Both the position numbers and the translations under genes were made by a program. Positions 31,874 through 42,390 of a stretch of 64,000 bases of DNA are shown piece by piece. The first letter of the stretch is position 1, and every line of letters starts with the position of its first letter. The DNA lies in NCBI GenBank assembly GCA_027489375.1, contig JAIXZW010000003.1, positions 62,001 to 126,000 on the forward strand. Reading direction: 5' to 3'. The notes under the pieces were generated by a model, which saw only the letters and a list, made by a program, of their open reading frames with translations, had not been told where the DNA came from and ran no database searches. The DNA is from Paracoccaceae bacterium. Lineage in GTDB: Bacteria; Pseudomonadota; Alphaproteobacteria; Rhodobacterales; Rhodobacteraceae.

Positions 31874-32575
31874 TCATTGGCGTTTGAGCCAGAGCGCCGC
31901 ATCGCCCAGCTTGCCCACAAAGGCGGCGTGGGCGGCGGCTTCCGCTTCGGTCAGGCGCGGGGGCAACGGTTCGGGGCGCGGGCGGGGGCGCCAGTCGCCG
32001 ATGTTTTGCGCGGCGTTGCCGTTGTTAGACGTGGTGGAGACGGAGCCAAGCGCGAAGTCGGGTTGGCGGCCACCGACGAGTTCGAGATACACTTCGGCCA
32101 AAATCTCGGAGTCGAGCAACGCGCCGTGCTTTTCGCGGGCGGAGTTGTCGACGCCGAAGCGGCGGCAGAGCGCGTCGAGCGAGGCAGGTGCGCCCGGAAA
32201 CTTGCTGCGGGCGATCATCAGCGTGTCGATGGCGCGGTCATTCGGGAGGGTGGGAAAGCCGGCCGAGCCGAGTTCGGCGTTGAGGAATTTCATGTCGAAA
32301 GCGGCGTTGTGGATCACCAGTTTCGCATCGCCGATGAAATCGAGGAAGGCTTGGCCGATTTCCCTGAATTCGGGTTTGTCGCGCAGGAATTCGTCGCCTA
32401 GCCCATGCACCTCGAACGCGGCGGTGGGCATTTCGCGCCTCGGGTTGATGTATTGGTGGTAGGTGCGGCCCGTGGGCAGGTGGTTGAACAGTTCCACCGC
32501 GCCGATTTCGACGATGCGGTGGCCTTCGGAAGGTTCGAAACCCGTGGTTTCGGTGTCGAGGACGATTTCACGCAT
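31874..32575 (-). CDS. dnaQ: DNA polymerase III epsilon subunit (proofreading exonuclease)
   Basis: 233 residues. DEDDh exonuclease: Exo I EIVLDTETTGFEP at the N-terminus, Exo II LVIHNAAFDMKFLNAEL near residue 105, and Exo III with KHGALLDSEILAEVYLEL near 170. The C-terminal tail should bind the polymerase alpha subunit. It overlaps coaE by eight bases and closes the leftward maf-aroE-coaE-dnaQ operon that begins at the origin. Confidence 0.97.
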   Translation of the reverse strand: MREIVLDTETTGFEPSEGHRIVEIGAVELFNHLPTGRTYHQYINPRREMPTAAFEVHGLGDEFLRDKPEFREIGQAFLDFIGDAKLVIHNAAFDMKFLNAELGSAGFPTLPNDRAIDTLMIARSKFPGAPASLDALCRRFGVDNSAREKHGALLDSEILAEVYLELVGGRQPDFALGSVSTTSNNGNAAQNIGDWRPRPRPEPLPPRLTEAEAAAHAAFVGKLGDAALWLKRQ

Positions 32576-33158
32576 GGGGAGCCGTTCGGATGAAGTCGAT
32601 CAGGGCATGGACGAAAGCGCGGGTGCTGTCGAGCGAAAGGGTTTCGACGACATGCGTGGCGCGGCGTCGTTTTTCGGCGTCGGGCATCTGGCGGGCGTGG
32701 ATCAGGTCGAATTGCGCGGGCGTCATGCCCGGGCGGGCGAGGACGCGGGCGCGTTGCAGGGCGGGGGGCGCGGTGACGAGGAGGGTGGCGTCAAACTCGC
32801 CCTCGGACCCTTTTTCGAAGAGGAGGGGGATGTCGAGGACGACGAGGTCGGCGGTGGTTTCGGCAAGGAAGGCGGCGCGGTCGGCAGCGACGAGGGGGTG
32901 GACGATCGCCTCGATCCGGCCGAGGGCGAGGGGGTCGGCGGCGATGAGGGATTTGAGCGCGGCGCGGTCGATGCCGCCTTGGGTCAATGCGGGCGGGTGC
33001 AGGGCGGCGAGGGGGGCAACGGCGGCCCCGCCCTGCGCATAAAGGCGGTGGACGGCGGCGTCTGCATCCCAGACGGTGATGCCCGTATCGCGGAAGAATT
33101 GGGCCGTGGTGGATTTGCCCATGCCGATCGACCCTGTCAGGCCAAGGCGGAAGGTCAT
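32568..33158 (-). CDS. coaE: Dephospho-CoA kinase
   Basis: 196 residues. Adds the 3'-phosphate in the final step of coenzyme A synthesis. P-loop LTGSIGMGKSTT is at residues 5-16, then VWDADAAVHRLY, HPLVAADRAAFL and the LVVLDIPLLFEKG strand. ATG at 33158 overlaps the aroE stop by four bases, which fixes the start; a longer upstream frame is an antisense artefact. Confidence 0.97.
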   Translation of the reverse strand: MTFRLGLTGSIGMGKSTTAQFFRDTGITVWDADAAVHRLYAQGGAAVAPLAALHPPALTQGGIDRAALKSLIAADPLALGRIEAIVHPLVAADRAAFLAETTADLVVLDIPLLFEKGSEGEFDATLLVTAPPALQRARVLARPGMTPAQFDLIHARQMPDAEKRRRATHVVETLSLDSTRAFVHALIDFIRTAPHA

Positions 33159-33994
33159 GCGGTCAGCAACGCTTGGCGCGTCGCCTCGTCCACTTCGGGG
33201 CGGTGGCCGAACCAGCGTTCGAAACCGGGGGCGGCCTGATGCAAAAGCATGCCGAGACCGTCGACCACTTTGGCACCGCGGGCCTCGGCTTCGATCAGGA
33301 ACTGGGTTTTGAGCGGGGTGTAGACGAGGTCCGTCACCAGCACGCCGGAGGAGAGCGTGTCGAGCGGGAGAACGAGGTCGGGCTTGCCGGTCATGCCGAG
33401 GGCCGTGGTGTTGACCACGGTGGCGGCGCCGTCGATCATTTCGGCGGCCTGGACCCATTCGTAGACATGCACCTTGGCCCCGAAGTCGCTGCGGAGCGCG
33501 TCGGCACGGGCGCGGGTGCGGTTGGCAAGACGGATTTCGGGAACGCCCACCTCGATCAGTGCCGCGATGACGGCGCGGCTGGCACCGCCCGCACCGAAGA
33601 CGGCAGCGGGGCCGGAGGCGGGCTGCCAGTCGGGGGCGTTCTGGCGGAGGTTGGCGATGAAGCCGGAGCCGTCGGTATTGTCGGCCTGAATCTTGCCATC
33701 CTTGCGGAAAATCAAGGTGTTGGCAGCACCGATCAGCGCTGCGCGGTCGGTGATGACATCGGCGATGTTCAGGATCGCCTCTTTATGCGGGATGGTCACG
33801 TTGCAGCCGACGAAGCCCATCTTGGGCATCATCCGCAGCGCGGCGGCAAGGTCGGCTTGCGCGATGTCGAGCGGGACGTAATGCCCTTTGATCCCGTAGC
33901 GTTTCAGCCAATAGCCGTGCAGCGCCGGAGAGCGGCTGTGGGCGATGGGGGAGCCGATGACTCCGGCGAGGGGGATGCGGGGATGGTCGGTCAT
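33155..33994 (-). CDS. aroE: Shikimate dehydrogenase (NADP+)
   Basis: 279 residues. Reduces 3-dehydroshikimate to shikimate in aromatic amino-acid synthesis. Substrate-binding [17 protein letters not shown] is near residue 15, catalytic Lys in NVTIPHKEA, Asp in ADNTDGSGF, the NADP loop GAGGASRAV, and NRTRARA selecting NADP. The C-terminal [14 protein letters not shown] is typical. It lies between maf and coaE with ATGA overlaps on both sides. Confidence 0.97.
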
Positions 33995-34593
33995 GCCGCG
34001 ATGAAACCGCGTTGGGAGAGATAGTTCAAGAGCGGCAAGAGCGGCAGGCCGAGGACGGTGAAGTAATCGCCCTGAATGGTTGTGAAGAGGCGCGCGCCTT
34101 CTTCTTCCAGTTTATAGCTGCCGACGGCATGTCGGATGCTGTCCCAGTTCCGTGCGACGTAATCTGTCAGGTAGGCATCGGTGGCGTCGCGCATGGTGAG
34201 CCGCACCTCGGCCACGTGACGCCAGATCGGTTCGCCACGGTCGTAAAGGACGGCTGCGGAGAGGAGTTTGTGGGTCTGGCCGCGGAAGGATTGGAGCTGC
34301 GACAGGGCTTCGGCGGGAGTCGCGGGTTTGGACCAGACCGCGTGGCGGAAATCGAGCACCTGATCGCAGCCGAGGACGAGGGCTTCGGGGTTCTTTTCGG
34401 AAAGCTTGCGGGCCTTCATCTCGGCCAAGGTATCGGCGACGTCGCGGGGGTTGGCGGAGTCGGCTTCGAGGCTTGCGCGGATCGCCTCTTCGTCGATGCG
34501 GGCGGGCAGAGCCGTGACCGTGAGGCCCGCGTTGCGCAGGAGCGTGGCGCGGATTTCGGAGGCGGAGGCGAGGATGAGGGGGCGATCGGTCAT
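33991..34593 (-). CDS. maf: Maf-like nucleotide pyrophosphatase
   Basis: 200 residues. Maf proteins hydrolyse non-canonical or pyrimidine nucleoside triphosphates and slow septation when overproduced (family knowledge). The N-terminal [13 protein letters not shown] is the family signature; [33 protein letters not shown] and [17 protein letters not shown] follow. ATG at 34593 is chosen because the upstream frame runs into the origin region without similarity. It is the first gene left of oriC and is transcribed away from it. Confidence 0.93.
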
Positions 34594-34612
34594 GCGGGCC
34601 TTGGGGCGGGTC

Positions 34613-34621
34613 TGTGGATAG
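34613..34621 (-). promoter_or_regulatory. DnaA box (distal)
   Basis: Minus-strand CTATCCACA, one mismatch from TTATCCACA. It lies about 270 bases from the main box cluster, just upstream of maf. Confidence 0.5.
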
Positions 34622-34885
34622 TCCGGTTTTGTTCTTGCTGTCCGCACGGGGGCGAAAGGCAAGGTCAGGGCGAGGAGGCGGTGCGGGGGCCGGTTTGTCA
34701 AGCCGGCCACGCGGTTTGTCCAGATGTGCATGGGGGTTCAGGCGGGCTGGGGAAAGCTGCGGCGGGGCCGGGCTGGGGATGGATGGATCGGGGATGGTTT
34801 CGGGGTGACGGTTTCGCGGCTTTCGTTCGGAAATGCTGGCTTTCAGGGGCATCGGCAAACTTGGACGAGTCGCCGGTGTTTGCGG

Positions 34886-34949
34886 TTTTCCACAGGGTTG
34901 TCCGTTGTGGATGAAAGGCGGGAGAGGATGGGTGATCCCGTTGTCCACA
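34886..34949. promoter_or_regulatory. Cluster of three DnaA boxes
   Basis: TTTTCCACA at 34886-34894 (plus), TCATCCACA at 34906-34914 (minus) and TTGTCCACA at 34941-34949 (plus), each with one mismatch to the consensus. Three sites in 64 bases beside an AT-rich tract is the usual DnaA-oriC layout. Confidence 0.7.
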
Positions 34950-34967
34950 GGGCCTACATCCACTATC

Positions 34968-35003
34968 AAGAAAGAATCTTCTTTCTTTTAGAAGAAGAGA
35001 TGA
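34968..35003. repeat. AT-rich inverted repeat, candidate DNA-unwinding element
   Basis: AAGAAAGAA (34968-34976) and TTCTTTCTT (34979-34987) form a perfect 9-bp inverted repeat around TC, followed by TTAGAAGAAGAGA. It is strikingly AT-rich against its surroundings, 19 bases past the last DnaA box. One GANTC methylation-type site (GAATC) lies at 34974-34978. Confidence 0.55.
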
Positions 35004-35022
35004 AAGAGGCGTGAGGCGCGAA

Positions 35023-35475
35023 ATGGTATGCGATTTTCTGGCCGAATGGTATGCTTGGACCAAGGCGCTTCACGTGGTTTCGGTCATCGCCTGGATGGCG
35101 GGGCTGTTCTATCTGCCGCGGCTTTTCGTCTATCACGTGGAAGAGGTCGAAGCGGGCAGCAAGACCGATGCGATGTTCCAGACGATGGAACGGCGCTTGC
35201 TGCGGGCGATCATGAATCCGGCGATGATCGGGGTCTGGGTTTTTGGTCTGGCGCTGGTGTTCACGCCGGGGATCGTGAGCTGGGATCAGGTCTGGCCCTG
35301 GACCAAGGCGACGGCGGTGCTGGGGATGACGTGGTTCCACCATTGGCTGGGGTGGCGGCGCAAGGATTTCATGGCCGGTTCGAACCGCCTGACGGGCCGC
35401 GATTACCGGATGATGAACGAGGTGCCGACGCTTCTGATGATCGTCATCGTCTTTTCGGTGATCGTGAAGTTCTGA
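35023..35475 (+). CDS. hemJ: Protoporphyrinogen IX oxidase HemJ
   Basis: 150 residues, integral membrane. The N-terminal AWTKALHVVSVIAWMAGLFYLPRLFVYH carries the conserved His and Arg expected of HemJ; three further hydrophobic segments follow, with TWFHHWLGWRRKDF and RMMNEVPTLLMI. HemJ oxidises protoporphyrinogen IX to protoporphyrin IX and is the common form in Alphaproteobacteria. ATG at 35023 is favoured by GAGG six bases upstream; a GTG at 35011 is poorly spaced. hemE, which often accompanies it at the origin, is absent here. Confidence 0.92.
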   Translation: MVCDFLAEWYAWTKALHVVSVIAWMAGLFYLPRLFVYHVEEVEAGSKTDAMFQTMERRLLRAIMNPAMIGVWVFGLALVFTPGIVSWDQVWPWTKATAVLGMTWFHHWLGWRRKDFMAGSNRLTGRDYRMMNEVPTLLMIVIVFSVIVKF

Positions 35476-35607: not shown

Positions 35608-36885
35608 ATGACCGAGACCATCGAACGTTTGAATCTTTCCGACCTCAAGGCCAAGACGCCTGCCGATCTTTTGGCGATGGCCGAGGAATGGGAGATCGAG
35701 AACGCGCCGTCCATGCGCAAGGGCGAGATGATGTTCCAGATCCTCAAGGAACATGCCGAAGAAGGGTTCGAGATCGGCGGCGACGGGGTTCTTGAGGTTT
35801 TGCAGGACGGGTTCGGGTTCCTGCGTTCGCCCGAGGCGAACTATCTGCCGGGTCCGGATGATATCTATGTCAGCCCCGAGATGATCCGGCAGTTCAGCCT
35901 GCGGACCGGCGACACCATCGAGGGGGTCATTCAGGCCCCGCGTGAGACGGAGCGGTATTTCAGCCTTGTGAAGGCGACGAAGATCAACTTCGACGATCCC
36001 GAAAAGGCGCGGCACAAGGTGCATTTCGACAACCTGACGCCGCTTTACCCCGACGAGCGGCTGAAGATGGAGATCGAGGATCCGACGATCAAGGATCGCT
36101 CGGCGCGGATCATCGACCTTGTCTGCCCCATCGGCAAAGGCCAGCGTGCTTTGATCGTGGCCCCGCCGCGGACGGGTAAGACGGTTCTGTTGCAGAACAT
36201 CGCGCATTCGGTGGCGACCAATCATCCTGAATGCTACCTCATCGTGCTTCTGATCGACGAACGGCCCGAGGAAGTGACGGACATGCAACGATCGGTGCGG
36301 GGGGAGGTTGTTTCCTCGACCTTCGACGAACCGGCGACGCGGCACGTGGCGGTTGCGGAAATGGTGATCGAAAAGGCCAAGCGGCTGGTCGAGCACAAGC
36401 GGGACGTTGTCATCCTGCTCGATTCGATCACGCGTCTGGGTCGGGCGTTCAACACGGTGGTGCCGTCGTCGGGCAAGGTTCTGACCGGTGGTGTGGATGC
36501 GAACGCCTTGCAACGGCCCAAGCGGTTCTTCGGTGCGGCGCGTAACATCGAAGAGGGCGGGTCGCTGACCATCATCGCCACGGCGCTGATCGATACCGGC
36601 AGCCGGATGGACGAGGTGATCTTTGAAGAATTCAAGGGCACGGGGAACAGCGAGATCGTGCTGGACCGCAAGGTTGCGGACAAGCGCGTCTTCCCCGCCA
36701 TCGACATCCTCAAATCCGGCACGCGGAAGGAAGATCTGCTCGTCGACAAGGTCGATCTGCAGAAGACCTATGTGCTTCGCCGTATCCTCAACCCGATGGG
36801 AACGACGGATGCGATCGAATTCCTGCTTGGCAAGCTGAAGCAGACCAAGACGAACGGCGAATTCTTCGATTCGATGAATAGCTAA
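35608..36885 (+). CDS. rho: Transcription termination factor Rho
   Basis: 425 residues. An N-terminal helical domain and an OSB-fold RNA-binding domain ([18 protein letters not shown], near residue 62) precede the hexameric ATPase with Walker [17 protein letters not shown] near 190, [14 protein letters not shown], the Q-loop region around [11 protein letters not shown], and the R-loop [24 protein letters not shown] at 35608 with AGGA upstream. In relatives it is an RNA helicase that ends transcription. It heads the origin-right operon into mnmE after 23 bases. Confidence 0.99.
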
Positions 36886-36908
36886 GGCTTTTCAGAGGGT
36901 TAGACGAA

Positions 36909-38183
36909 GTGGACACGATCTACGCCTTGGCCAGCGCACGCGGCAAGGCCGGGGTGGCGGTATTCCGCATCTCGGGCCCGAAGGCATTTGCTGCGGCAGA
37001 GGCCTTGTGTGGCGGTTTGCCATCTCCTCGTCGTGCTTCGGTGCGACGGATCGGATGGGGTGGGCTGCTGCTGGACGAAGCGCTTGTGATCGTTTTTCCG
37101 GCGGGCGAAAGCTTTACCGGCGAACCTGTGGTCGAGTTTCAGACACATGGTTCGCTGGCCGTCGTGCAGGCGATCATGCGCGCTTTGGCAGAGCAACCCG
37201 GTTTGCGTCTGGCCGAGGCGGGCGAGTTTACGCGGCGGGCGCTTGAGAACGGCAGGCTTGACCTTGCACAGGTCGAAGGCCTTGCCGATCTGATCGATGC
37301 AGAGACCGAGGCGCAACGGCGGCAGGCTGTGCGCGTTCTGACGGGTGCAATCGGAAAGCGGGCTGAAGAGTGGCGGGTTCATCTGGTGCGGGCGGCCGCA
37401 TTGGTTGAGGCGACCATTGATTTTGCCGACGAGGATGTTCCGGTCAACGTCCTGCCTGAAGTAAACGAGTTGATCATACGGGTTGAAACCGACTTGCGCC
37501 GCGAGGCGGCCGGAGCGGTCGCTGCCGAGCGGATCCGCGAAGGGTTCGAAGTTGCCATCGTTGGGGCGCCGAACGCGGGAAAGTCTACGCTTCTCAATGC
37601 GTTGGCCGGTCGGGACGCGGCCATCACATCGGAAGTTGCCGGGACGACCCGTGATGTCATCGAGGTGCGGATGGAGATTGCCGGGCTCGCCGTGACGTTG
37701 CTGGATACGGCGGGTCTGCGAGAAACCGAGGACCGTGTCGAAAAGATCGGGATCGAGCGGGCTTTGCTGCGGGCCAAGGCGGCAGACTTGCGGGTGTTTT
37801 TGCTTGGGGAAGGGTCAGTCGTCGGGCTTGAGCCGGACGAGGGGGATATCGTCGTCAAGGGAAAGGCTGACCTTGGCGGAACGGGTGTTTCCGGACTCAC
37901 GGGGCAAGGTCTGGCCGAACTGATCGACGAGATCGGCAACCGATTGGCGGACAGGACGCAAGGCGCAGGCGTGATGACGCGCGAACGGCATCGTTTGGCG
38001 GTATTGCGGGCGATAGGGTCTTTGGAATCGGCCCGGTTTGAGATAGAGGCTGGTGCGGAACGTACGGAGTTTGCGGCGGAAGCCTTGCGGCGTGCGATTT
38101 TTTCTTTGGAATCGCTTGTCGGTCGTGTGGATGTCGAAAATCTGCTGGATGAAATTTTCTCCAGCTTCTGCATCGGGAAGTAG
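36909..38183 (+). CDS. mnmE: tRNA modification GTPase MnmE
   Basis: 424 residues from a GTG. The N-terminal folate-binding domain ([20 protein letters not shown]) is followed by a helical domain and an inserted G domain with P-loop [14 protein letters not shown] near residue 220, switch TTRDVIEV and [13 protein letters not shown]. It ends with the required C-terminal CIGK. With MnmG it installs carboxymethylaminomethyl groups at U34 of certain tRNAs. The stop is three bases before the mnmG GTG and the parS site. Confidence 0.98.
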
Positions 38184-38185
38184 GG

Positions 38186-40060
38186 GTGTTTCACGTGAAA
38201 CAGTTCGATGTAATCGTGATCGGCGGCGGGCATGCCGGTTCCGAGGCAGCAGCCGCTGCGGCGCGGATGGGTGCGCGGACTGCATTGGTCACGCTGAAGG
38301 CGGCAGGTATCGGTGTCATGTCGTGCAATCCGGCGATCGGCGGCTTGGGCAAGGGGCACCTTGTTCGCGAGATTGATGCGATGGATGGCATCATGGGTCT
38401 GGCCGCAGACCGTGCCGGAATCCAGTTCCGACTGTTGAACCGGCGGAAGGGGCCGGCCGTGCAGGGGCCGCGTACCCAGGCAGACCGGAAATTGTATCGT
38501 CTGGCGATTCAGAATTTGCTGGCCGGCTTGGAAGACCTGACCATCGTGGAAGGCGAGGTCGTCGATCTTGCGGAATCGGGCGGGCGTATTGCCGGCGTGC
38601 GGCTGGCGGACGGCTCACTGCTTTCGGCGAAGGCGGTCATTCTGACCGCCGGAACATTCCTTAACGGGTTAATTCATATCGGCGATGTCAATCGTCCGGG
38701 TGGCCGGATGGGTGACGCCCCGTCGCTACCCCTGGCGGCGCGATTGGCCGAGATGAATCTGGCGCGCGGTCGGTTGAAGACCGGCACGCCACCGCGGCTG
38801 GATGGAAAGACGATTGATTGGGACCGGTTGGAGAAGCAACCGGCCGATGAGGATCCGGTCGTCTTCTCTTTCCTGAATCGAGGCGCGCAGGTTAGGCAGA
38901 TTGCCTGCGGCATAACCCATACGAATGAGCGGACGCATGACATCGTTCGCTCGAACCTTGCGCGGTCTGCAATGTATGGCGGCCATATCGAGGGGGTCGG
39001 GCCGCGGTATTGTCCGTCGATCGAGGACAAGGTTGTGCGCTTTGCGGATAAGACAGGTCATCAGGTCTTTCTGGAGCCGGAGGGGTTGGATGACGATACG
39101 GTCTATCCGAACGGTATCTCGACCTCGTTGCCCGAATCGGTGCAGGAGGACTATGTCCGGTCAATCGTGGGGCTCGAGGGCGTCAGGATCCTTCAACCCG
39201 GTTATGCCATCGAATATGATTTCTTTGACCCGCGCGGTTTGACCGCTTCTTTGGAGGTCAAGGCGGCGTCTGGCCTTTACTTTGCGGGGCAGATCAACGG
39301 GACGACGGGATATGAAGAGGCTGCCGCACAGGGGATGGTTGCCGGGCTGAACGCTGCGGCCGTCGTGCTGGGCCGTGATCCGGTGCGCTTCGGACGGTCT
39401 GAAAGCTACATCGGGGTGATGATCGACGATTTGATTACCCGCGGCGTGACCGAGCCGTATCGGATGTTCACTTCGCGGGCAGAATTCCGGCTTGCGCTTC
39501 GGGCGGATAACGCTGATCAGCGGTTAACCCCGAAAGCCATAGAGGCGGGCTGCGTATCAGACCTTCGTCGAGAAACCTTCAGCCGTAAGCTCGAAGCGAT
39601 GGACGTGGCGCGCAACGCATTGGAATCGGTCAGATTTTCGGCCAAGGATCTTGAAAATACGGAGCTTCGGGTCAGCCGGGACGGTGCGCGGAGAACGGGG
39701 TTCGAATTGCTTGCCTTTGGTGACGGGGCGCTTGGCGTGGTCGAGAAACTGGTTCCCGATTTCGGCACGCTTGATCCGACGATCAAGACCCAGGTGGCGA
39801 CGGATGCGCTTTATGCGCAGTACCTTCATCGCCAGCGCGGGGATGCCGAACTTTTGCAGCGGGAGGAGGGTGCCGTCATCCCGAGGGATTTTGACTACGA
39901 TGCGATGTCCGGTTTGTCGAATGAATTGACGGCGAAGCTCAAGCGAATTCAGCCGGAGAACCTTGCACAAGCGGGCAGGATCGAGGGGATGACGCCCGCG
40001 GCGCTGACGTTGATCCTTGCCCATTTGCGCAAAGCCAAGCGGGTCAGAGCGACCGCATGA
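38186..40060 (+). CDS. mnmG: tRNA U34 modification enzyme MnmG (GidA)
   Basis: 624 residues. FAD enzyme partnering MnmE. The start is GTG at 38186, giving [26 protein letters not shown] lies five bases upstream. FAD-binding [35 protein letters not shown] and [12 protein letters not shown] are conserved, as are both catalytic-type Cys segments ([14 protein letters not shown]). The residues FHVKQ are dictated by the perfect parS palindrome that covers codons 1-6. It overlaps rsmG by four bases. Confidence 0.98.
38187..38202. promoter_or_regulatory. parS: parS centromere site 1 (perfect)
   Basis: TGTTTCACGTGAAACA, the exact 16-bp palindrome bound by chromosomal ParB in Caulobacter and relatives. 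It lies inside the first six codons of mnmG, about 3.2 kb from the oriC candidate and 3.3 kb before parB. Confidence 0.93.
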
Positions 40061-40668
40061 TCGAACTCCTGCCCGACCTCGTTGTTTCACGTGAAACAGA
40101 GGGAAGTTTGCGCCAGTTGGAGGCGCTGCTTTCGAAGTGGAACCCCGCGATCAATCTGGTGTCCAAATCGACGATGCCCACGGCGTGGTCGCGCCATATC
40201 CTTGATTCGGCACAACTATTCGCGCTCGCTGGACCATTTCGCAAATGGGCGGACTTGGGCAGCGGCGGAGGATTCCCCGGTCTGGTTATCGCGATCCTTG
40301 GCCGTGAATTGCAGCCCGCCGCGCGCCTTACCCTGATTGAATCCGACCAGCGGAAGGCAACATTTCTGCGCCAGGCTGCGCGCGAGATCGGCGTCGACGT
40401 CATTGTTCGCTCCGAGCGCATCGAAAATGCAGAGCCTGCCGGCGCAGATGTCGTGTCGGCCCGCGCCCTTGCGCCGCTTGACGTGTTATGCGGGCTGGCG
40501 CTGCGGCATCTGGCCGAGGGCGGAGTTGCACTTTTTCCCAAGGGCGTCACTTGGGAAGACGAGGTTGCGGCGGCCCGTAAAAGCTGGAATTTTGAATGCT
40601 CTGCCCGGCCGAGCGTGGTGGACGAAAGTTCGGTAGTTCTTGTTATGAAAGCGATCAATCATGTCTGA
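40057..40668 (+). CDS. rsmG: 16S rRNA (guanine527-N7)-methyltransferase RsmG (GidB)
   Basis: 203 residues. SAM methyltransferase: motif [18 protein letters not shown] near residue 66, [18 protein letters not shown], and [14 protein letters not shown]. It methylates G527 in the 530 loop; loss gives low-level streptomycin resistance in studied species. Residues VVSRETEG near position 9 are encoded by a perfect parS palindrome. Overlaps: four bases with mnmG and eight with parA. Confidence 0.97.
40083..40098. promoter_or_regulatory. parS: parS centromere site 2 (perfect)
   Basis: A second exact TGTTTCACGTGAAACA, 1.9 kb from the first, read in a different codon phase within rsmG (VSRET). Two perfect 16-mers this close, next to parAB, cannot be chance. 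Confidence 0.93.
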
Positions 40669-41482
40669 TCCCTCGCGGCCCCGCGCCCCGCGCATCATTG
40701 CCATTGCAAACCAGAAGGGCGGGGTGGGCAAGACGACCACGGCAATCAACCTTGCGGCTGGTCTGGCGGAAATGGGCGCACGCGTTCTTCTGGTGGATCT
40801 CGACCCACAGGGAAATGCATCGACGGGTTTGGGGGTGGAGCCGGAGAATCGCAGGGTGACGACCTATGATCTTCTCGTCGATGACGCGGCGCTCGGAGAC
40901 GTTCTGCAAGAGACGAACATCCCGGGTCTGTGGATTTGCCCCGCGAATGCGGACCTGTCCTCGGCAGATATGGAGCTGTTTGCCAACGAGAAGCGGAGTT
41001 TCTTGCTCCACGATGCCTTGCGCCAGCCTGCGATGGACCCCTTTGCCTTCGATTTCATCCTGATCGACTGCCCCCCGTCGTTGAGCCTGCTCACGGTCAA
41101 TGCAATGGTGGCGTGCCATTCGGTGCTTGTTCCGCTGCAGTCCGAGTTTTTCGCGCTTGAAGGGCTTTCCCAGCTCATGCTGACGGTGCGTGAGGTCCGG
41201 CAGACCGCGAACCCGAGCCTACGAATCGAAGGTGTTGTGTTGACCATGTATGATGGCCGCAACCGGTTGAGCCAACAGGTCGAAACGGATGCGCGGCAGA
41301 ACCTCGGCGATCTGGTGTTCCAGACGATCATTCCTCGGAACGTGCGCGTATCCGAGGCACCTTCTTTCGCGCTACCTGTTCTGAACTACGATCCTGTGTC
41401 CAAGGGAAGCGAGGCGTATCGCGCCCTTGCGGCTGAATTGTTGGCACGGCACCCCATCAACCACGTTTCGGAGACAGCCTGA
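40661..41482 (+). CDS. parA: Chromosome partitioning ATPase ParA
   Basis: 273 residues. Deviant Walker A ANQKGGVGKTTTAINLA near residue 17, Walker A' VLLVDLDPQGNASTGLG, and Walker B FILIDCPPSLSLLTVNAM. The PLQSEFFALEGLSQL segment is typical of origin-proximal (Soj) ParA. The ATPase forms gradients on the nucleoid that move ParB-parS complexes apart. It overlaps rsmG by eight bases and parB by one. Confidence 0.98.
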   Translation: MSDPSRPRAPRIIAIANQKGGVGKTTTAINLAAGLAEMGARVLLVDLDPQGNASTGLGVEPENRRVTTYDLLVDDAALGDVLQETNIPGLWICPANADLSSADMELFANEKRSFLLHDALRQPAMDPFAFDFILIDCPPSLSLLTVNAMVACHSVLVPLQSEFFALEGLSQLMLTVREVRQTANPSLRIEGVVLTMYDGRNRLSQQVETDARQNLGDLVFQTIIPRNVRVSEAPSFALPVLNYDPVSKGSEAYRALAAELLARHPINHVSETA

Positions 41483-42390
41483 TGGACAAGAAGAACGAAC
41501 GTCGTGGTTTGGGCCGTGGCCTTTCGGCGCTGATGGCGGATGTGAATGTCGAGGTCGATCCGCAATCACCGGATCGTCCGCGTCGGCCCGATCTTCTGGT
41601 TCCGGTCGAAAAGCTGGTTCCGAACCCCAACCAGCCGCGGCGGGATTTCCAGCCCGAGGCTTTGCAGGAACTGGCCGATTCGATCCGGCTGAAGGGTGTG
41701 ATCCAGCCGCTGATTGTGCGGCAGATGACGGGTGACAGGTATGAGATCGTCGCCGGTGAACGGCGGTGGCGTGCGGCGCAACTGGCGCAGTTGCATGAAC
41801 TGCCGGTGATCCTGCGGGATTTCAGCGACTCCGAGGTGATCGAGGTCGCGATCATCGAAAACATCCAGCGCGCGGATCTGAACGCGGTGGAAGAGGCGCT
41901 CGCCTACAAGCAGTTGATGGAACGCTTCGGTCACACACAAGAGAAGGTGGCCGAAGCCCTTTCGAAAAGCCGGAGCCACATTGCCAACCTGCTGAGACTG
42001 CTGAACCTGCCCGAGGATGTTCAGGCTTATGTGCGCGATGGCAAGCTTTCGGCGGGGCATGCGCGGGCGCTCATCACATCGCCCCGTGCGTCGGAATTGG
42101 CGCGGCAGGTGATCACGCGCAATCTTTCGGTGCGCGAGACCGAGGCTTTGGCCAAGCGGCCCGACCAGAAGGGTGCGGGCAAGGCTTCGGGGCCGCGGCC
42201 GAAGGTCGACAAGGACGCGGACACGCGGGCGCTGGAGAATGATCTTTCCGCCAACCTCCACATGCGCGTGGTAATCGACCATAGCGCGGCGGGTGAGGGC
42301 GGGAGCCTGACGGTGCATTACCGGACGCTGGACGATCTCGACTTGCTTTGCTCGGCGCTGTCGGTGGCGCGGCGGGATCTGGCGGTTTAG
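41482..42390 (+). CDS. parB: Chromosome partitioning protein ParB
   Basis: 302 residues. A short basic N-terminus (KNERRGLGRGLSALMAD) interacts with ParA in homologues. The CTPase/ParB-N domain has VPNPNQPRRDFQPEAL, GVIQPLIVR and GERRWRAAQLA; the helix-turn-helix includes HTQEKVAEALSKSRSHIANLLRLL; the C-terminal domain dimerises. It loads at parS sites 38187 and 40083. The stop overlaps the convergent hemW stop (TTAG). Confidence 0.98.
   Translation: MDKKNERRGLGRGLSALMADVNVEVDPQSPDRPRRPDLLVPVEKLVPNPNQPRRDFQPEALQELADSIRLKGVIQPLIVRQMTGDRYEIVAGERRWRAAQLAQLHELPVILRDFSDSEVIEVAIIENIQRADLNAVEEALAYKQLMERFGHTQEKVAEALSKSRSHIANLLRLLNLPEDVQAYVRDGKLSAGHARALITSPRASELARQVITRNLSVRETEALAKRPDQKGAGKASGPRPKVDKDADTRALENDLSANLHMRVVIDHSAAGEGGSLTVHYRTLDDLDLLCSALSVARRDLAV

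Follow-up and report, generated by a model that had tools for sequence, protein, structure and literature searches.

The 429-base gap between the divergent maf-like and hemJ genes, at 34594..35022 of the window (the whole 64,000-nucleotide stretch analyzed here), is probably the DnaA-dependent oriC of its chromosome. We put the probability of this sequence-based reading at about 60%, with the lack of a GC-skew switch across the gap left unexplained. The earlier note had proposed a probable chromosomal oriC at this place, and box sequence, uniqueness, gene order, parS sites and strong conservation uphold that proposal, but the skew test went the opposite way. What is shown directly is that the sites exist, that they are unique among the strong boxes listed for the assembly, that they are conserved and how the genes are ordered; it is the clash between skew and oriC, rather than the oriC itself, that makes the locus of interest. 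A literature search covering part of the matching papers returned no published account of this clash.

Genes bordering the gap

The assembly that contains the window (G000) comprises 3,885,329 b in 22 contigs and is 94.6% complete; the window covers positions 62,001-126,000 of its contig C17 (382,383 b). Judged by HemJ, the closest named relatives are Gemmobacter straminiformis (88%) and a Rhodobacter MAG (87%). Open reading frame positions, together with the same gap in relatives, define an oriC-like intergenic segment (no strand) whose claimed limits proved exact: maf begins at 34593 on the minus strand and hemJ starts at 35023 on the plus strand. The maf-like gene on the left border (33991..34593, − strand) matched PF02545 with 147 bits, and hemJ on the right border (35023..35475, + strand) matched PF03653 with 198 bits and TIGR00701 with 135.6 bits against a cut-off of 138. 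Scores for both Maf and HemJ were below NCBIfam cut-offs and far exceeded those of Pfam. A 50-base, 80% match (E = 2.9e-4) to the maf-coding portion of a query also lies at C12:430,017-430,066 of the same assembly and is possibly a second Maf gene.

The borders are flanked by a conserved left block of dnaQ, coaE and aroE (31874..33994, − strand; Pfam/NCBIfam) and a conserved right block of rho, mnmE, mnmG and rsmG (35608..40668, + strand; NCBIfam), followed by parA and parB (40661..42390, + strand; Pfam/NCBIfam). The claimed outward orientation applies to the nearest genes on either side, dnaQ-coaE-aroE-maf on the left and hemJ to parB on the right, whereas secB and fxsA (the latter named by eye) on the left and hemW-rdgB on the right face the opposite way. 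The dnaA gene is located 91 kb rightward of the gap, and Rfam and tRNA scans over the window gave no matches.

DnaA boxes and chance expectation

The consensus DnaA box is TTATCCACA, and the scoring of 8/9 boxes rests on it. Pattern matching recovered all four of the 8/9 boxes previously described in the gap, three of them within 64 b (34886-34949). The leftmost, CTATCCACA, lies at 34613..34621 on the minus strand, and minus-strand boxes near −400 recur in relatives. The remaining three were compared by eye across 12 aligned gaps, window included: at the position of TTTTCCACA, 34886..34894 (+ strand), a box with no more than one mismatch aligns in 9/12; TCATCCACA at 34906..34914 (− strand) has TGTGGAT aligned in 8/12; and at the position of TTGTCCACA, 34941..34949 (+ strand), the box closest to the AT-rich stretch, a box with one mismatch or fewer aligns in 6/12.

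A chance gathering of loose matches, to which we give practically no credence, would fit the observation that one-mismatch boxes are not commoner in the assembly than the reversed pattern (220 versus 294 per 3,885,329 b). At the assembly density, however, 0.024 boxes are expected per 429 b, such that four boxes yield P = 1.4e-8, or 1.3e-4 after correction for all same-size windows, and this, with the excess of boxes in the gaps of relatives described below, refutes chance. The gap thus holds an intergenic DnaA-box cluster above chance, as required of an oriC. Sites matching TTNTCCACA number 50 in the assembly (the reversed pattern also 50), and the sole pair less than 1.5 kb apart is the pair in the gap. 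Clusters elsewhere were assessed from TTNTCCACA sites and from stretches that were read, with other one-mismatch boxes considered among the matches listed; within this scope, and in an assembly that is 94.6% complete, the gap is the sole oriC-like cluster found. An AT-rich island on the same contig (L005, C17:26,441-26,628; down to 31% GC over 80 b) lies 70 kb left of the gap and holds one of only seven perfect TTATCCACA boxes in the assembly, with no more strong boxes clustered there.

AT-rich stretch beside the boxes

Next to the boxes lies the AT-rich stretch expected of an oriC (34961..35010, no strand), a candidate unwinding element whose opening is predicted. In a scan of the 64 kb with 80-base windows on a 20-base grid, the only one below 42% GC starts at 34961, and the final 80 b of the gap, at the hemJ end, has 31-53% GC in relatives. 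The AT-rich 9-bp inverted repeat reported earlier is indeed present, with perfectly matching arms AAGAAAGAA at 34968-34976 and TTCTTTCTT at 34979-34987 around a 2-base loop (34968..34987, no strand). Its DNA folding z is −1.06, and among the other 11 aligned gaps it recurs only in L154, L155 and G007, with one or two changes. Because it is present, imperfectly, in only 3/11 other gaps, the repeat is not a defining part, and AT-richness is the conserved feature.

A basal unwinding system has been outlined that consists of a box, a spacer of at most 16 b and at least three N-A-N triplets (PMC8287927, available portion). By eye, an 11-base spacer followed by four N-A-N triplets (CAC TAT CAA GAA; 34950..34972, + strand) fits this general DnaA-trio pattern, and box, spacer and triplets together (34941-34972) form a candidate counterpart of the published system, although the pattern is loose and the triplets are not of the frequent 3′-GAT-5′ form.

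parS sites and chromosomal position

Perfect parS sites were said to begin 3.2 kb from the gap, and pattern matching located two (no strand): one at 38187..38202 in the start of mnmG, 3.2 kb away, and one at 40083..40098 inside the start of rsmG, 5.1 kb away. These are the only perfect parS sites in the whole assembly, which places parS close by, a further sign of an oriC. Both fall at the very beginning of their genes and are translated as protein. Among 11 genomes searched, own included, 8 carry one or two perfect sites, each less than 6 kb from hemJ; none was found in G004, G006 or G016, a point against the oriC reading. The two sites are 1,896 b apart in the window, 1,896-1,917 b in G001, G002, G007, G019 and G028, and 2,697 b in G046. 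The available text of PMC8116508 places parAB close to ori in nearly every genome but notes some exceptions among Rhodobacterales.

The origins of Caulobacter and Rickettsia lie between hemE and a DUF299 (COG1806) gene (PMC1914354, available portion); the borders here are maf and hemJ. Between the gap position and hemJ, the class-level outgroups G056 and G080, two of which were compared, have hemE, ~1.5 and ~1.3 kb from maf, respectively. None of the 80 named loci, which span 5.8-20.5 kb, gave a hemE match, and in the window's genome hemE is on a separate contig (C7:90,239). The gap therefore corresponds to the same place minus hemE. As part of the best explanation, it would occupy the position at which other alphaproteobacteria have oriC, with hemE gone from the border. 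Likeness to Cori of Caulobacter crescentus, as described in the accessible text of PMC1914354, extends to the neighborhood (via the two outgroups), a length of ~400 b, several DnaA boxes and a composition AT-richer than the genome. Unlike Cori, the gap has no hemE border, no CtrA site TTAA-N7-TTAA at up to one mismatch, no IHF site WATCA-N5-WTR at zero mismatches and no skew switch; the missing CtrA and IHF sites also count against an oriC.

Within the same family, Ori-Finder assigned oriCs in 101/109 Rhodobacteraceae strains, with eight unassigned, by criteria that included parAB nearness, DnaA boxes and a local GC minimum, in all of which those origins resemble the gap; nearness to the GC-disparity minimum was also a criterion, and in this the gap differs (PMC6699656, available portion). 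The chromosome 1 origin of R. sphaeroides was located via cumulative skew and partition loci (PMC6315104, available portion), and GC skew was insufficient for origin placement in several alphaproteobacteria (PMC1914354).

Conservation of the gap in relatives

We compared 93 loci, comprising 80 named loci, 12 further genome loci and the window, with four genomes present twice. The order maf-gap-hemJ is kept in 91/93, L220 and L226 being incomplete on the left side, and the block dnaQ-maf-gap-hemJ-parB is intact in nearly all loci read, within a wider region that is reshuffled between species. The 87 distinct gaps (337-475 b, window included) contain 228 one-mismatch boxes versus 7.6 expected from letter shuffling, a ~30-fold excess; with the four genomes counted twice, 241 boxes compare with 8.4 expected in 91 gaps. 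At least two boxes occur in 73/87 distinct gaps, at least three in 42/87 and none in 2/87. Box positions relative to hemJ recur near −80, −120, −140/−150, −240 and −400, and the majority core of the 12-gap alignment reads TTTTCCACAGG...CTGTGGAT...ATCCCGTTGTCCACAGGGCCTACATC, followed by the AT-rich stretch.

GC skew at the gap

Standard theory disallows a long-used bidirectional origin without a skew step. A skew minimum at the gap was a check that the earlier note had set for itself, a minimum elsewhere counting against an oriC, and the outcome was adverse: no switch was found in the contig or the clade, and the minima of G001, G006 and G007 lie ~175-420 kb off. The minimum of the window's own genome, in 22 contigs, is not placeable. 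Skew is positive in 32/32 blocks of 2 kb in the window and ranges from +0.06 to +0.25 in 63/63 sampled 5-kb blocks of C17, over a span that reaches 97 kb leftward and 285 kb rightward of the gap, such that the minus-to-plus switch, a common sign of an oriC though outside its definition, is absent. Genes on both strands have positive skew at their third codon positions in every C17 piece read, and the positive skew is thus not an effect of gene direction.

Flanks were compared by the third-position skew of orthologous genes up to 10 kb to either side of the gap, with plus- and minus-strand genes averaged. Left and right values were +0.32 and +0.24 for the window, +0.40 and +0.26 for L154, and −0.19 and −0.20 for G006, with −0.18 and −0.21 for its close relative G016; five Tabrizicola-like loci (L184, L186, L204, L217 and L173) gave +0.18 to +0.26 on the left and +0.24 to +0.34 on the right. 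In a tree built from eight proteins of the gap locus itself, 65/91 taxa, including the window, form one clade with support 1.0, made up of Tabrizicola, Gemmobacter, Defluviimonas, Cypionkella and relatives (Rhodobacteraceae). Origin-type skew (minus left, plus right) occurs in 0/41 scorable clade members and equal signs in 35/41, with both signs represented, versus an origin-type switch in 17/23 scorable taxa outside; these counts omit 24/65 clade and 3/26 outside taxa for which a left or right value was missing, and they include one genome twice, as G004 and L160. Left and right skew correlate at 0.82 inside the clade, where the mean step is −0.045; outside it is +0.118. When classes were thresholded, with taxa missing a gene orientation classed from one orientation only, the 65 inside comprised 0 origin-type, 31 plus-plus, 10 minus-minus, 20 near zero, 3 plus-minus and 1 not scored, and the 26 outside comprised 13 origin-type, 9 near zero, 3 equal-sign (L195, L229 and G033) and 1 not scored.

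The skew of the outside relatives also bears on whether the boxes act in the transcription of maf and hemJ, or in DnaA titration there, unrelated to initiation. DnaA is able to regulate genes, and the boxes do stand in a divergent promoter region; their position, the parS sites, the AT-rich end and the switch-type skew that most relatives outside the clade show there nonetheless point to an origin, and no sigma-70-type promoter match was found in 34550-35100. We consider such a purely regulatory role improbable.

By our reasoning, the missing step is not due to reshuffling alone, because the dnaQ-to-parB block is unbroken in almost every locus read and an inversion that carries an origin keeps the correct skew on both sides. 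Heavy reshuffling around the gap between species is in keeping with the more frequent lagging-strand inversions reported for Rhodobacterales and with a single unambiguous ori being identified in only 70/147 closed genomes (PMC9836097, available portion). Overall, sequence, position, parS and conservation point to an oriC, while strand composition points to forks that long ran through the gap.

Skew switches elsewhere and possible displaced initiation

The main skew minimum lies ~175-420 kb from the gap in 3/4 relatives sampled chromosome-wide, in profiles that are sparse away from the gap (one sample every 150-400 kb) and not free of exceptions. The minima of G006 (4.140-4.142 Mb, 418 kb from the gap) and G001 (~2.305 Mb, 394 kb) occupy a colinear place, where C1:4,138,737-4,158,761 and C1:2,300,016-2,319,962, respectively, share a minus-to-plus switch close to recQ, in a sugar ABC transporter/IclR region (all named by eye). 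Relative to this shared switch, the gap block is oppositely oriented in the two genomes. By eye the region holds no replication gene except recQ, and it holds no DnaA-box cluster. Exceptions to the profiles are a further minus stretch near 3.1 Mb and plus at 3.5 Mb in G001 and, in G006, minus stretches at 0.38-0.45 Mb and 1.1 Mb together with plus skew at 2.5 Mb.

In G007, the nearest relative with a single-contig chromosome (3.69 Mb), the minimum falls at ~3.41-3.43 Mb, ~175-195 kb left of the gap, by our own reading after a recent inversion was set aside and with a boundary that is not sharp; exceptions are minus skew at 0.15-0.2 Mb and plus skew at 2.0 Mb. The segment at C1:3,430,000-3,480,000 was considered as a minus arm up to the switch and rejected: it is an in-place inversion of ~48 kb relative to C17:268,000-316,000 of G000, with its GC skew carried along. 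Because this inversion kept its own skew, skew outlives rearrangement in this genus. The skew of G045 is too broken for placement of a minimum.

These switches raise the possibility, the main rival to an active oriC and in our view the less likely of the two, that most replication in the clade starts elsewhere, with the old oriC and parS kept for DnaA binding and segregation or as a reserve origin. Forks from outside would then cross the gap one way, left-to-right or right-to-left by species. The absence of origin-type skew and the prevalence of equal signs in the clade, the positive skew of all sampled C17 blocks, and the switch common to G001 and G006 with its oppositely oriented gap blocks all favor such displacement. 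Yet no DnaA-box cluster turned up in the stretches read around the switches (G007, 3.385-3.510 Mb; G001, 2.300-2.320 Mb; G006, 4.130-4.175 Mb; G000 C12, 492-517 kb), and the place near recQ (recQ/yggT by eye) was rejected as a common alternative origin, having a switch in G001 and G006 and none in G000, G002 or G007. A site at ~496 kb on C12, possibly the skew minimum of G000, was likewise rejected as the true origin; it lies between convergent sixA-like and aapP-like genes (by eye), every gene called in the last 20 kb is on one strand, and no box cluster is present.

Displacement also sits poorly with the state of the boxes, which have not decayed within the no-switch clade. The mean is 2.56 boxes in 9 skew-switch loci versus 2.54 in 26 no-switch loci, and 2.79 in 58 in-clade loci versus 2.05 in 19 outside. 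Counting against an active oriC, at least three boxes are present in 10/26 no-switch versus 6/9 switch loci.

Other indicators of replication direction

A search for the dif consensus with up to three mismatches gave weak matches in 5/8 genomes, every one at three mismatches, and none in G001, G006 or G045. The point opposite the gap has a candidate 46 kb away in G007, 51 kb away in G028 and 101 kb away in G019; G019 has two, at 1,597,389 (the one used) and at 2,763,680 (not opposite the gap), and that of G046 is on another contig. Recent substitutions between G006 and G016, polarized by G004, numbered 29 C>T and 45 G>A on the left and 50 C>T and 33 G>A on the right, an origin-like pattern that is equally explained by gene strand and synonymous pyrimidine changes, fourfold sites being too few. 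A search for SSU rRNA gave matches in 0/9 genomes, with a procedure that recovered only 9/14 controls and missed Caulobacter.

Discussion

Taking the gap as an active oriC, we infer that replication starts there as follows. DnaA would bind the boxes at 34886, 34906 and 34941, with the box at 34613 as a putative outer anchor, and would extend rightward beyond the last box, into the AT-rich stretch that adjoins hemJ. This stretch would then open, the helicase would be loaded and two forks would form, and ParB, acting at the parS pair 3.2 and 5.1 kb away, would segregate the new copies.

The consequences for the family depend on which line of evidence is followed. If the gap is the origin, the clade offers a clear example of GC skew, the usual means of locating origins, misplacing one, by ~175-420 kb in the three genomes where this could be judged, and automatic origin calls made in the family should be checked. 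Should the skew be right instead, which we hold possible but would not favor, a large Rhodobacteraceae clade may long have initiated mostly away from its ancestral oriC and parS while retaining the boxes and the AT-rich end, such that origin use and origin sequence became uncoupled. A lineage that moved initiation off a conserved oriC yet kept the site would represent a rare and testable event.
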